From Chloroflexia bacterium SDU3-3 (GTDB taxonomy: Bacteria; Chloroflexota; Chloroflexia; Chloroflexales; Roseiflexaceae): 64,000 nt of DNA. A program made the translations under genes and the position numbers. The notes beneath the pieces are model-generated. The model made no database searches and had not been told where the DNA came from. It worked only from the letters and a program-made list of their open reading frames with translations. The stretch spans positions 93,543 to 157,542 of the forward strand of contig WBOU01000008.1 of NCBI GenBank assembly GCA_009268125.1, written 5' to 3'. Position 1 is the first letter of the stretch; each line of letters opens with the position of its first letter. Positions 14,544-29,589 of this stretch are shown one piece after another.

Positions 14544-14648
14544 GGCGGTTTTGTCTCCCTTGGTGGCTGTCGCGCAATTGTAGCATATGGCAAAAAAGCG
14601 CACCACAAGGCGGGGGGACCGTCTACCACGAAGATGCGAAGGGGACGA

Positions 14649-14990
14649 ATAACCACGAAGACGCGAAGGCGCGAAGGGGGATGGGAGAAACGTTTACCAC
14701 CAAGACGCCAAGACACCAAGGGGACGAATAACCACGAAGACACGAAGGCGCGAAGGGGGATGGGAGAAACGTTTACCACCAAGGGGACGAATAACCACGA
14801 AGACGCGAAGGCGCGAAGGGGGATGGGAGAAACGTTTACCACCAAGACGCCAAGACACCAAGGGGACGAATAACCACGAAGACGCGAAGGCGCGAAGGGG
14901 GATGGGAGAAACGTTTACCACCAAGACGCCAAGACACCAAGGGGACGAATAACCACGAAGACGCGAAGGCGCGAAGGGGGATGGGGGGCG
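14649..14990. repeat. 79-bp tandem repeat of the octamer family
   Basis: Units begin ATAACCACGAAGACGCGAAG at 14649, 14728, 14791, 14870 and 14949. Spacings are 79, 63, 79 and 79 bp; the third unit begins early because the second lacks a 16-bp piece (GACGCCAAGACACCAA). Each unit joins a CGAAGGCG-type octamer run and a CCAAGACG-type run. The copies are almost identical, so the expansion is recent. A short lead-in of the same sequence begins near 14622. Confidence 0.95.
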
Positions 14991-15143: not shown

Positions 15144-15439
15144 ATAGCGCGGATATTAACATTATTTGTGCGGCGAATATATCGAGATGTGAATTATTCT
15201 TATGTGTAAATAGTCGCTAAAAAGACAACATATATTGATCAAAGAGGAATAATTCGGCGGTATATATTGATTTCATTCGTGATATTGTTGTGGCGGTTTG
15301 ATATGACGTGTGGCAGTGTATTCATTGGCAAAAAGCACATGATCGAGCGGTGTGGTTCCGAGATGTATGTATTCATGGCTTGCTGATAGGTCATGGCTCT
15401 ATGCGAAGGGTGGTGATGGCAAAGAAAGAGGCCGCGCAT
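15144..15439. other. AT-rich spacer before the 21-bp array
   Basis: Strongly AT-rich compared with its surroundings (tracts such as TATATATTGATTTC). Stops in all frames; no gene, RNA or promoter I can defend. Confidence 0.5.
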
Positions 15440-15771
15440 GCCAGCGGCCCGCGATTGCAGGCCAGCGGCCCGCGAATGTAAGCCAGCGGCCTGCGATTGC
15501 ATGCCAGCGGCCTGCGATTGCAGGCCAGCGGCCTGCGAATGTAAGCCAGCGGCCCGCGAATGTAAGCCAGCGGCCTGCGATTGCATGCCAGCGGCCCGCG
15601 ATTGCATGCCAGCGGCCCGCGATTGCATGCCAGTGGCCTGCGATTGCACGTCAGCGGCCCGCGAATGTAAGCCAGCGGCCCGCGAATGTAAGCCAGCGGC
15701 CCGCGAATGTAAGCCAGCGGCCCGCGATTGCACGCCTGCGGCCCACGAATGTACGCCAGTGGCCAAGATCG
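15440..15771. repeat. 21-bp tandem array, 15 units plus a partial
   Basis: Unit GCCAGCGGCC[C/T]GCGA[A/T]TG[C/T]A[N], repeated head to tail with no spacers from 15440 to 15754 and a decayed unit after it. Units are of two kinds, GCGATTGCA (A) and GCGAATGTA (B), in the order A B A A B B A A A A B B B A B. Because 21 is divisible by three and the units lack stops, several frames on both strands are open, giving meaningless heptapeptide ORFs. Twenty-one bp is two helical turns, so every unit presents the same DNA face. Confidence 0.95.
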
Positions 15772-15791: not shown

Positions 15792-16448
15792 ATGCCGAGT
15801 CCCTACAAGAATGCCATAGACGACCTGCTCGCCGCCGCCGAGGCATCCATCAGCAACGCCGCCGACCCGATCATCGCCCCGCTCCTCGCCGCCTACGGCT
15901 ACGACGGCGCGCGGATCGCCGAGGGGCAGGCGCTCTACGATACCGCGCTCGACACCCTGGCCCGCCAGCGCAAGGAGCAGGGCGAGGAGAACAGCGCCTC
16001 GGCCAGCTTCCAGGCCGCGAGGGAGGCCGCCGACACCGCCTACATGCGGCTGGTGAAGGTGGCCCGCGTGGCCCTGAGCCGCGATGCCGCCGCACTTCAG
16101 GAGCTGGGGCTGGTCGGCCCGCGCAAGCGCACGATCAACGGCTGGGTGGGCCAGGCGCGCCAGTTCTACACCGCGCTGGAGCGCACCCCAAGCCACCAGG
16201 CCGCGCTTACGCGCTACGGCATCACCGCCGCGCGGCTGGCCGCCGATCGTGCCAGCTTCGAGGCCATGCTAGAGGCGAAGAACATCTACGACCGCGAGCG
16301 AGGCGACTCCCAGGATGCCAGCGAGCATCGCGAGGTCGCCTTCGAGGCGCTGGAGGACTGGATGGATGAGTTTATCCCCATCGCCCGTGTGGCGCTGGAT
16401 GAGCACCCGCAGCTGCTGGAGAAGCTAGGTGTCCAGGTCAAGGGGTAG
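15792..16448 (+). CDS. Helical protein with internal duplication, unknown function (218 aa)
   Basis: A soluble, almost entirely helical protein with no signal peptide. It contains two related segments: VARVALSRDAAALQELGLV near 100 and IARVALDEHPQLLEKLGV at the C terminus, so the protein is an internal tandem duplication of a four-helix-like unit. ATG 15792 has AGAGGAT upstream. It begins 20 bp after the end of the 21-bp array, so the array lies in its promoter/leader region. I recall similar proteins of unknown function ending in LLEKLGI from Chloroflexota and Bacteroidota, but cannot name the family. No neighbour suggests a role. Confidence 0.75.
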   Translation: MPSPYKNAIDDLLAAAEASISNAADPIIAPLLAAYGYDGARIAEGQALYDTALDTLARQRKEQGEENSASASFQAAREAADTAYMRLVKVARVALSRDAAALQELGLVGPRKRTINGWVGQARQFYTALERTPSHQAALTRYGITAARLAADRASFEAMLEAKNIYDRERGDSQDASEHREVAFEALEDWMDEFIPIARVALDEHPQLLEKLGVQVKG

Positions 16449-26093: not shown

Positions 26094-27239
26094 CTACCGC
26101 GCCACGATCGGCAGGTAGACCTGCGGGCTGACGGTGATGCTGCCGCCGTTGCCGCGCAGGCTGTGGTTGTAGGTGTCCGCGATCAGGATGCGCTCGCCCG
26201 CCGCCGCCACGCCAGCCGGGAAGCGCAGCAGCGCGCTGTTGCCTGCGCCGTCGGCGCTGCCCGGCAGGCCCGCCGTGCCGAACAGTGTGCTGACCGCGCC
26301 GCTGGCCAGATCCACGCGGCGGATGGTGCTGTTGGAGAAATCGGCGATGAGCGCCGCGCCGTCGGGGGCGATGGCGATGCCGCGCGGGAAGTTGAACAGC
26401 GCCGCCGTGCCGTCGGTGCTGCCGGGCTGGCCCGCCGTGCCCGCCACGGTGGTGACGGCCCCGCTGGCCAGGTCGATGCGGCGGATGGTGTGGTTGTCGC
26501 TGTCGGCCACCAGGGCGAAGCTAGCATCCGCCGCCAGCGCCACGCCGCGCGGGCTGCTGAAGCGCGCCGCCGCGCCCACGCCGTCGGCGCTGCCCGAGGT
26601 GCCCGGCGAGCCTGCCACGGTGGTGACGGCCCCGCTGGTCAGGTCGATGCGGCGGATGGCGTGGTTGTCGGTGTCGGCCACCAGGGCGAAGCTGGCATCC
26701 GCCGCCAGCACGATGGCCGAGGGGCTGGCGAAGCGCGCCGCAGCGCCCACGCCGTCGGCGCTGCCCGCCGCGCCGGGCGTGCCCGCGACGGTGGTGACGG
26801 TGCCGCTGATCACATCCACGCGGCGGATGATGCGGTTGTCGGCGTCGGCCACCAGGGCGAAGCTGGCATCCGCCGCCAGCGCCACCCCCGATGGGTAGGC
26901 GAACTGCGCATCCGGGCCGGTGCCGTCGTTCCAGCCGCGCTGCCCCGCCGTGCCCGCGATGGTGGTGACGCTGCCGGTGGCCACATCCACGCGGCGGATG
27001 ATGTTGTTTTGCGCGTCGGCCACTAGGGCCACGCTGGCGTCGGCGCTCAGGCTGATGCCCGATGGGTAGTTGAAGCGGGCGGCGTCGGCCACGCCGTCGG
27101 CGGAGCCGCGCTCGCCGCTGGCGCTGCCCGCCAGGCGGTGCAGCAGCGGCACGGCGGTGTCGGCGTGGGTCACGCCTGCGAACCCGAGACATGCCACGGT
27201 CAGGGCGGCGATGGGCCATGGTGAAAGGTGGAGGCGCAT
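26094..27239 (-). CDS. Secreted NHL-repeat beta-propeller protein
   Basis: A 381-residue exported protein: N-terminal signal (RLHLSPWPIAALTVACLGFA, cleavage near THADT). Five to six NHL blades of about 57 residues follow, each with the pattern YPSGVALAADASFALVADAD, IRRVD, SGxVTTVAGTxGxxGxxDG. Such propellers bind proteins or glycans outside the cell. The protein ends QVYLPIVAR, a short tail with YLPI shared with the M14 peptidase here (TWLPIIAH). The ATG at 27239 has AAGGAGC. The blades are nearly identical to each other at DNA level, suggesting internal expansion. The 21-bp array lies about 140 bp upstream of its start. Confidence 0.88.
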   Translation of the reverse strand: MRLHLSPWPIAALTVACLGFAGVTHADTAVPLLHRLAGSASGERGSADGVADAARFNYPSGISLSADASVALVADAQNNIIRRVDVATGSVTTIAGTAGQRGWNDGTGPDAQFAYPSGVALAADASFALVADADNRIIRRVDVISGTVTTVAGTPGAAGSADGVGAAARFASPSAIVLAADASFALVADTDNHAIRRIDLTSGAVTTVAGSPGTSGSADGVGAAARFSSPRGVALAADASFALVADSDNHTIRRIDLASGAVTTVAGTAGQPGSTDGTAALFNFPRGIAIAPDGAALIADFSNSTIRRVDLASGAVSTLFGTAGLPGSADGAGNSALLRFPAGVAAAGERILIADTYNHSLRGNGGSITVSPQVYLPIVAR

Positions 27240-27379
27240 GTCAGCTCCTTCAGTAGCTTGGTGGAATGGCCCAAGCTTACCATAGATGTACATACGATGG
27301 TATAGCGTGGCTTGATGAAAGAGATAGAGGAAGCGATGTTTTTTCTCACAATAGTGTGATATTTGGCGTGAAGAATGGC

Positions 27380-27673
27380 AGAAGGCCGCGAAGGTGTGAC
27401 GGAAGGTCGCGAAGATGTGATGGAAGACCGCGAAGGTGTGACGGAAGGCCGCGAAGATGTGACGGAAGGCCGCGAAGGTGTGACGGAAGGCCGCGAAGGT
27501 GTGACGGAAGGCCGCGAAGGTGTGACGGAAGGCCGCGAAGGGGTGGCGGAAGGTCGCGAAGATGTGATGGAAGGCCGCGAAGGTGTGACGGAAGGCCGCG
27601 AAGGGATGACAGAAGGCCGCGAAGGGGTGGCGGAAGGTCGCGAAGATGTGATGGAAGGTCGCGAAGGTATGGC
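27380..27673. repeat. Second 21-bp tandem array, 14 units
   Basis: Unit GGAAGGCCGCGAAGGTGTGAC, 14 units without spacers, with recurrent variants GAAGATGTGAT and GAAGGGGTGGC. It has the same 21-bp period as the array at 15440 and shares a CCGCGAA[G/T]GT core with its B units. A 137-codon plus-strand ORF (TEGREGV heptapeptide repeats) and an antisense ORF (FRHTFAA heptapeptides) span it; both are explained by the 21-bp period. It lies between the divergent starts/ends of the NHL gene and the ABC permease gene. Confidence 0.95.
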
Positions 27674-27784
27674 GGAACCAGCGGCCTCGCCCATTCGCGA
27701 GGCCGCCGCGCCCATGCCGCTGGCCATAATCCCGCCCGCAGCGGCGGGGCCTGCCCCAGCGTGGCAGCCCCGCTTTTCCCGCCG

Positions 27785-29524
27785 CTAGAACTCCAGCTTG
27801 TCCAGCTGGCGCGCGCCCAGGCCCAGGAAGCCCCACGCCACCAGCGCGGTGAGGCCCAGCCCCAGCGCCCAGCCCAGCAGCCCCAGCAGCCAGGCCCAGG
27901 CGGGCAGCAGCGTGCCGGTGAGCGGCAGCCCCACGATCGCCCCCAGCGCCAGCGCCAGGTAGAGGATGTAGAAGATCGGCATCAGGCAGCCCGCCTGCAG
28001 GCTATTCTGGTCGGTGGGCTTCTCCCAGTCGAACTTGGGGAACGATGCGCCGATGCCCAGCGTGATCGCGCTCAGACCCACGCCCACGATCTGCACGATC
28101 AGCCAGGCCACCAGCGCGTGCTGCGGCAGGGCGTGCTGCAGGTACGAGATCAGGCCGATGAACAGCGTGCCCATGATGGGGTAGGGCAGGAAGGCCAGCG
28201 CGAACTTGCCCAGCAGCAGCCGCCGCGTGCTGATCGGCGCGAGCCGCAGGATCCAGAAGGCCTTGCCCTCGCGGCTGATGTTGGGGCCGCCCAGCGCCGA
28301 CGAGAAGGTGAGGCAGATAAAGGTGCTGATGCCCACAGGCGTGAGCAGGCCGAGCGCCGAGTTCACGGCGCTGGGTGCATCCTCGATAGTGGGGCTGCTG
28401 GTGAACAGCTGGTAGATCCAGAACCCGCTCATCATCAGCGGGAACAGCAGCTGCTGCACATTGCGCAGGTCGCGGGCGAACAGCCGCAGGTCTTTGAACA
28501 GGATGGCCCCGGCATCCACGGGCAGGCCTGGGATGCGCATGGCCAGCGGGGCTTGCGGCTCGCCCTGGCCGCGCGGCTCGCGGCGGCGCACCCGCCCGCT
28601 CTCGGAGGACATGTTGGCCCAGCCCGCGTAGTAGATGCGCTCGCCCAGCACCAGGGCCGCCGCGAAGCCGCCCAGCGACACCAGCGCGAACGGCAGGCCG
28701 TAGGCCAGCGTGGTGGCCCATTGGTGCGCGCCCGCCGCCGCCACGGCCCGCCCGGCCCAGGCCGAGGGCAGCAGCGGGCTGTTGAGCCGACCCAGCAGCC
28801 CCACCATCTGCGCGCCGCCGCTGCTGGGGCTGAATCGGTAGGACAGCTGCGAGAAGGCGTACCATGCCAGGCCGAACAGGCCGCCCAGCACACCCACGAT
28901 CTCGCGCGCCCGCTTGGCGGGGATGATGCGCACCACCGCCATCACCAGCAGCGCGCCCAGCGAGAAGGGCAGCAGCGGCAGCAGCAGCACCGCCAGCAGC
29001 GCGGCCACGTAGTAGGCTGGGCCGTAGCCCATGCCGTGGCCGAAGCCCAGCAGCGCCGGGGCCAGCAGCATGAACAGCAGCAGGTAGGGGAACGACAGCC
29101 CGCCGAAGAACTTGACCACGAACACCGCCCGCATGGGCACCGGCGCGACCAGCAGCATGTCGATGTCGCCCGAGAGGTAGAGCGACGAGAGCACCGTGCT
29201 GAAGCTGGTGAGCAGCATCATCAGCAGCGCGATCAGCAGCGCGGTGCTGGGCAGCCCCACCAGGTAGGCGTCGAGCTCGGCCAGGGTGGTGGGCACCTGC
29301 AGGCGCGGGTTCTCCTGCGCGGCCTCGCGCAGCGCGTCGAGGAAAAACTCGTTGCGCAGCGAGCTGACCGCCCCGCGCATCAGGCCGTAGATCGAGAGGG
29401 CCAGCAGGCCCAGCACCAAGAACAGCATGCCCCAGCGCAGCTTCTTGCGCAGGTCGCCCCGCCAGATATTGTTGCGCAGCACCATCAGCTTGGACTGCGT
29501 GATCACCCCAATCGCATGAAGCAT
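27785..29524 (-). CDS. ABC exporter permease subunit, putative
   Basis: A 579-residue polytopic membrane protein with about 12 hydrophobic segments, in two halves: about 25-300, and 350-575, with a cytoplasmic loop rich in Arg between them (RVRRREPRGQGEPQ). Short motifs such as LYLSGDIDMLLVAPVP and FWILRLAPISTRRLLLGK are the paired coupling-helix segments typical of large two-half permeases of ABC-2-like exporters. The gene follows an ABC ATPase gene by 65 bp on the same strand, so the pair forms one transporter. ATG 29524 is preferred over upstream TTG/GTG codons because those lie in a repeat block. The substrate is unknown. Confidence 0.85.
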   Translation of the reverse strand: MLHAIGVITQSKLMVLRNNIWRGDLRKKLRWGMLFLVLGLLALSIYGLMRGAVSSLRNEFFLDALREAAQENPRLQVPTTLAELDAYLVGLPSTALLIALLMMLLTSFSTVLSSLYLSGDIDMLLVAPVPMRAVFVVKFFGGLSFPYLLLFMLLAPALLGFGHGMGYGPAYYVAALLAVLLLPLLPFSLGALLVMAVVRIIPAKRAREIVGVLGGLFGLAWYAFSQLSYRFSPSSGGAQMVGLLGRLNSPLLPSAWAGRAVAAAGAHQWATTLAYGLPFALVSLGGFAAALVLGERIYYAGWANMSSESGRVRRREPRGQGEPQAPLAMRIPGLPVDAGAILFKDLRLFARDLRNVQQLLFPLMMSGFWIYQLFTSSPTIEDAPSAVNSALGLLTPVGISTFICLTFSSALGGPNISREGKAFWILRLAPISTRRLLLGKFALAFLPYPIMGTLFIGLISYLQHALPQHALVAWLIVQIVGVGLSAITLGIGASFPKFDWEKPTDQNSLQAGCLMPIFYILYLALALGAIVGLPLTGTLLPAWAWLLGLLGWALGLGLTALVAWGFLGLGARQLDKLEF

Positions 29525-29589
29525 TCGTTTCTCTGCTCTTACCACCAAGGCGCGACGCCCGGCGTCCAGCAGCCCTAGTGGTAGCTATG

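Follow-up and report, generated by a model that had tools for sequence, protein, structure and literature searches.

Does a spacer-free array of 21-bp repeats, found between two genes of the draft genome of Chloroflexia bacterium SDU3-3 (6.76 Mb, 51 contigs), stand alone, or is it one locus of a larger class, and what would the members of such a class have in common? Two explanations are usually given for bacterial minisatellites: slippage at loci scattered over the genome, with units of assorted length, or carriage by a single mobile element. The array is located in a stretch of 64,000 nucleotides (C8:93543-157542), hereafter the window, and positions given without a contig name refer to it.

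The Array and Its Neighborhood

The studied array (array 2, 27378..27677, not assigned to a strand) is made up of 14 units, GGAAGGCCGCGAAGGTGTGAC or a close variant of it, that follow one another without spacers. TRF delimited it at 27381-27677, with a period of 21, 14.1 copies, 87% matches, 0% indels and the consensus GAAGGCCGCGAAGGTGTGACG. Set out in phase, the units run contiguously from 27378 to about 27677 without spacers. Period, absence of spacers and copy number are exactly those given in an earlier sequence-only reading of this DNA. The array occupies the gap between the 3′-end of a permease-like gene (27785..29548, minus strand; ABC_tran_2, PF16949), which faces it, and the 5′-end of a gene for an NHL-repeat protein (26094..27236, minus strand), which starts about 140 bp away. 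The latter gene includes a 171-bp tandem repeat of its own (26409-27140, 4.3 copies) that encodes NHL blades. A copy of a dispersed repeat described below, element B, was identified by nhmmer at 27682..27761 on the plus strand (C8:121224-121303, plus strand; score 26.6). Its 5′-end is found 4 bp past the array; element B reads CCAGCGGCCTCGCCCATTCGCGAGG...GCTGGCCATAATCCCGC....

A second array in the window (array 1, 15436..15764, also not assigned to a strand) has 15-16 spacer-free 21-bp copies of AGCGGCCCGCGAWTGYANGCC (15436-15764 and 15.7 copies by TRF), and its unit family is shared with an array at C19:22087-22300 (20/21 identical positions). It stops 28 bp before the start of a gene (15792..16448, plus strand) for a helical protein without a Pfam match. 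This protein and the product of C3:7295-7927 are paralogous; in both cases a 21-bp array is located 24-28 bp before the start, and the two arrays belong to different unit families. The helical protein has 12 matches in the genome, three of them on contig C23.

The two arrays had been thought to share a core. The best alignment between the "B" unit of array 1 and the array 2 unit reached 13/21, a value attained by 2.7% of shuffled pairs, and that between the array 1 consensus and the array 2 unit reached 11/21, attained by 42% of the shuffles. At least eight arrays of this genome nonetheless do have the CGCGAA core, but they came from a search that looked for CGCGAA every 21 bp, with the core as query. 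Between the two arrays for which it was proposed, the shared core is weak. By single linkage, the array 2 unit groups with those at C12:164818, C3:123542, C8:87275 and C19:76422.

A Genome-Wide Set of 21-bp Arrays

Because that search had used the core itself, 2.38 Mb (35% of the genome) were scanned by TRF without regard to sequence. The scan identified 45 arrays of the 21-bp class. Two were set aside, one inside a predicted gene (C1:353644) and one consisting of a 42-bp repeat with no clear 21-bp sub-unit (C3:295735), leaving 43 non-coding arrays. When only contigs picked without reference to arrays were considered (C1, C2 and C4; 1.48 Mb), about 22 arrays remained, which extrapolates to roughly 100 across the whole genome. 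The suggestion that the two arrays of the window represent a genome-wide class was thus correct, if too modest, and the possibility that the genome holds no other arrays of exactly 21 bp was refuted by many further ones. One of the arrays (C12:42068-42263) is found within a CRISPR-Cas locus, in a gap immediately before cas1 (C12:42510).

The period was then compared with the copy number after removing arrays inside predicted genes. Among intergenic arrays of at least five copies in the 2.38 Mb sample, 31 of 33 have a period of 21 and the other two a period of 42. At 3-5 copies the period is 21 in 4 of 17 arrays and 42, 63 or 84 in six more, and among intergenic duplications of 1.8-3 copies it is 21 in 8 of 49, with many other lengths represented. 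Duplications of many lengths hence arise, and only those of 21 bp were found amplified. We infer that the lock on length acts on expansion or maintenance rather than on the first duplication. This bears on the idea that the arrays are written by an enzyme with a fixed 21-nt step, e.g., an integrase or a polymerase that copies a template. Such an enzyme would leave the unit sequence free and the length fixed, as observed, and one reverse transcriptase-like match and two matches to Cas1 are present in the genome. However, period 21 is only mildly enriched at 2-3 copies, where writing should already show, no gene was found consistently associated with the arrays, and reverse transcriptases and Cas1 are common elsewhere. 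We regard this explanation as quite unlikely.

The 21-bp length is also kept inside the arrays. The 446 units comprise 263 distinct substitution variants and no internal indels, a count to be read with the caveat that TRF could close an array at an indel, and a few indels were found at array edges. As a control, nearest-neighbor pairs of the intergenic element A (see below) differed by 106 indels and 1674 substitutions (0.063 per substitution), a rate at which about 17 indels would be expected in the arrays versus the zero seen. Local alignment opened eight gaps, none of them internal to a 21-bp array: they were in C3:295735, which had been set aside, or at the edge of an array. Super-repeats of 42 and 63 bp are visible within arrays. 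Since the genome is a draft, in which one array is found at a contig end and another includes a run of N, array copy numbers may be wrong.

Unit Families Share Length and Not Sequence

All units were compared in every rotation and on both strands. About ten families with more than one member emerged, along with about ten singletons, and the similarity between families followed the distribution obtained with shuffled units. Within families, identical or near-identical units are dispersed: AAGCTTCCGGCGATGGTGATT units are present at about 11 loci, and GGTCGA-type and GATTGCGTCAC-type units at several loci each. The proposal that a common core unites the class had therefore to be abandoned, as the families are unrelated to one another beyond chance and arrays 1 and 2 themselves are only weakly alike. 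The occurrence of scattered arrays with one length and many unrelated sequences points to something in the cell that amplifies or keeps 21-bp repeats only.

One could instead consider the arrays neutral slippage minisatellites whose common period is a historical accident, a single ancestral 21-bp satellite having spread and diverged. Unit families do spread, and the super-repeats are indicative of unequal exchange. On the other hand, the resemblance among about ten families and the singletons does not exceed that among shuffled units, and common descent would require that all resemblance was erased while the length stayed exact. We find this account rather unlikely.

Another interpretation is that the arrays are selected DNA-binding sites on which a protein polymerizes along one face of the DNA, with sites two helical turns (21 bp) apart, in nucleoid anchoring or gene control. 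Twenty-one bp are two turns of B-DNA, and an exact period with zero internal indels fits this interpretation. The sequences of the units speak against it: we found no motif common to the array families, no excess of palindromes and no 10.5-bp composition signal in the units, and the orientation of the arrays and their distance to gene starts are inconsistent. We consider such a function unlikely. The units were also inspected for a 7-bp sub-period. Identity at lag 7 was 5.49 versus 5.62 in shuffles, and an apparent 7-bp harmonic (p = 0.003) vanished when one unit per family was used.

Coding Status and Genomic Placement

As 21 bp also correspond to seven codons, the arrays might be small genes for heptapeptide-repeat proteins. 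At first sight both arrays of the window are compatible with this possibility. Array 2 is open from an ATG at 27375 to a TAG at 27788, and array 1 is open from an ATG preceded by AAAGAGG, a plausible ribosome-binding site, to a TAA that immediately precedes the next gene. Every array indeed has at least one open frame, but open frames are about equally frequent in shuffled units. Among 125 open frames in 24 variable arrays, a synonymous excess was detected at p < 0.05 in 2.4% and at 0.01 in none, so that no array exceeds chance. The frame common to most CGCGAA arrays, otherwise open, is interrupted by a TAG in C28:26094, and the start codon before it is absent in C8:87275. On the basis of the synonymous test, this stop and this missing start, the arrays were treated as non-coding, and heptapeptide genes are a very improbable explanation.

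The two arrays of the window had each been placed next to an intergenic regulatory region. At array 2 this is only loosely correct, with the 5′-end of one neighbor and the 3′-end of the other facing the array, and a regulatory reading of the class is not supported. Among gaps with both neighbors known, 28 are co-directional, 9 divergent and 7 convergent, and the arrays tend to be nearer gene ends than gene starts, with no consistent orientation or distance to the starts. None of the arrays matched an Rfam family, and an origin from plasmids or viruses was dismissed, as no match was found. The arrays are not CRISPRs either, as their units are contiguous and have no spacers; true CRISPRs, with 37-bp repeats, are found elsewhere in the genome.

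Dispersed Elements at the Array Edges

Comparison of the array flanks led to two related intergenic repeats. Element A is about 177 bp long and hairpin-rich, and the 2.38 Mb contain about 134 matches to it, C12:164546-164722 being one; element B is about 88 bp long. In a strict scan for the 5′-end common to both elements, 15 A/B copies faced an array by this end within 100 bp and none by the 3′ side. These 5′-ends face 11 of 45 arrays, four of which are flanked on both sides by inverted copies, and a profile search added two further A/B-adjoining arrays, array 2 and C4:5972. About a third of the arrays thus abut the 5′-end of a dispersed A/B element, and, with no A/B detected at the edge of most arrays, a composite model covers about a third of them. 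In four arrays of the GATTGCGTCAC family the junction with B falls at the same unit phase, which suggests joint movement of array and B.

The motif at the A/B 5′-end matched 250 sites in this genome and a single one in 59 relatives, and the central part of element A recurs weakly in a few further Chloroflexales. Element A is nearly private to this genome. The flanks of 83 full-length A copies, whose ends are not fixed, showed no excess of direct repeats that would indicate target-site duplications. With flanking direct repeats not above control, an origin of the 21-bp units from a long target-site duplication by element A was rejected. Seeding of the units from A/B ends was also discarded, as at least nine bases were shared in 4 of 24 cases versus 1.4 expected and the mean length of the shared stretch was not significant.

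Two other features of the window were recorded. Element C, made up of degenerate ACCACGAAGACACGAAGG / ACCACCAAGACACCAAGG repeats, occurs at 14639-14985 and 1824-1955 and has about 150 copies in 2.38 Mb. The region 2132-2351 matched the glmS ribozyme with 37.5 bits, barely above the cut-off of 37.

Comparison with Relatives

The permease-like gene next to array 2 (27785..29548) was used as the anchor to compare orthologous sites. None of the five relatives with an orthologous gene carries a 21-bp array beside it. In one of them, Chloroflexales bacterium ZM16-3, a 17-copy array of an 8-bp unit, CGCCTCAG, is found directly after the orthologous gene (L213:11747-11882), at the site that array 2 occupies in the genome studied here. 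Outside this genome, a pattern of the array 2 unit had no exact match in 84,980 genomes. A four-unit CGCGAA pattern gave scattered and mostly weak matches in 59 relatives, several of them visibly coding, as well as a single 21-bp array that is likely non-coding, at the end of a contig in genome G031. In this genome, a relative from another family, positions L074:1-160 (contig C369) hold a 21-bp array of GATGATCACGCACTCGCGAAC with 7.6 copies; it is located at the contig start, mostly outside long frames. The arrays in the sampled relatives are mainly of 7 bp, with one of 8 bp. Period-7 arrays occur at 0.4 per Mb in the genome studied here, at about 44 per Mb in a small sample of 205 kb from relatives (nearly all of it from one genome, G002), and at 131 per Mb in another small sample, 84 kb around one locus in other relatives.

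Discussion

The same length, and not the same sequence, is found in the well-amplified intergenic arrays of this genome, which separates length from sequence. We propose, with a probability of about 0.62, that array 2 belongs to a system of minisatellites that is specific to this lineage, locked in unit length and entangled with the MITE-like repeats A and B. According to this proposal, short tandem duplications of many lengths would arise between genes, and only those of exactly 21 bp would be amplified to 5-16 copies and held in phase. The copies in one array would be homogenized through multi-unit duplication, visible as the 42- and 63-bp super-repeats. Some units, together with part of their flank, may then have spread to many loci beside or between inverted A/B copies (about 80-180 bp), the array forming the inner, variable segment of a composite. 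Dispersal would then take place as part of this composite repeat. As to what sets the length, a tentative possibility is a sequence-blind, length-specific process that acts on two helical turns and amplifies or protects exact 21-bp tandem duplications. Any intergenic sequence so duplicated could become a satellite, and the outcome would be about 100 arrays with one period and unrelated sequences. The question of what sets the unit length of a satellite thereby becomes testable in a bacterium. In practice, the array loci should vary strongly between strains, which would make them strain markers, and should interrupt assemblies built from short reads.

In a literature search that misses most subscription journals, we found no published description of such arrays in Chloroflexales. 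Several known systems share some of their properties. VNTR/MIRU-type minisatellites are likewise non-coding tandem arrays, and they too change through duplication of several units at a time. In VNTR/MIRU genomes, however, the unit length differs from locus to locus, while all well-amplified intergenic arrays described here have units of 21 bp or double that length. CRISPRs resemble them as intergenic tandem repeats near 21-37 bp but have unique spacers, whereas these arrays are contiguous; the genuine CRISPRs of this genome combine 37-bp repeats and spacers at other loci, one of which starts at C12:44827. The heptanucleotide satellites, namely cyanobacterial STRR and (GATAGRA)n of Chloroflexus aurantiacus, are also species-specific tandem arrays (PMC6749651). 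The (GATAGRA)n family is known from the same bacterial order, and 21 is 3 × 7; C. aurantiacus is the bacterium with the most satellites in the set of Subirana and Messeguer, many of them from one heptamer (PMC6749651). These satellites have a 7-bp unit, however, and the units described here lack a 7-bp sub-period.

Closest among known systems is the BrickBuilt repeat of Porphyromonas gingivalis, in which spacer-free 23-nt units form a minisatellite within a MITE that has a leader and a tail; it is present at 19 intergenic loci in one to about 23 copies (PMC4596501). Both systems are spacer-free, of near-constant unit length, always intergenic and dispersed. BrickBuilt has recurring segments on either side of the repeat, and in this genome a recognizable flanking element accompanies about a third of the arrays. 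The 23-nt unit of BrickBuilt is absent here, where the unit length is 21 in every array. Indels reach up to 6% in BrickBuilt repeats (PMC4596501), and none were found within the 21-bp arrays. Terminal inverted repeats with a target-site duplication, as in a MITE of the BrickBuilt type, were not found for element A. Finally, the 19 BrickBuilt loci share a single unit family, whereas in this genome many unrelated families of one single length occupy about 100.
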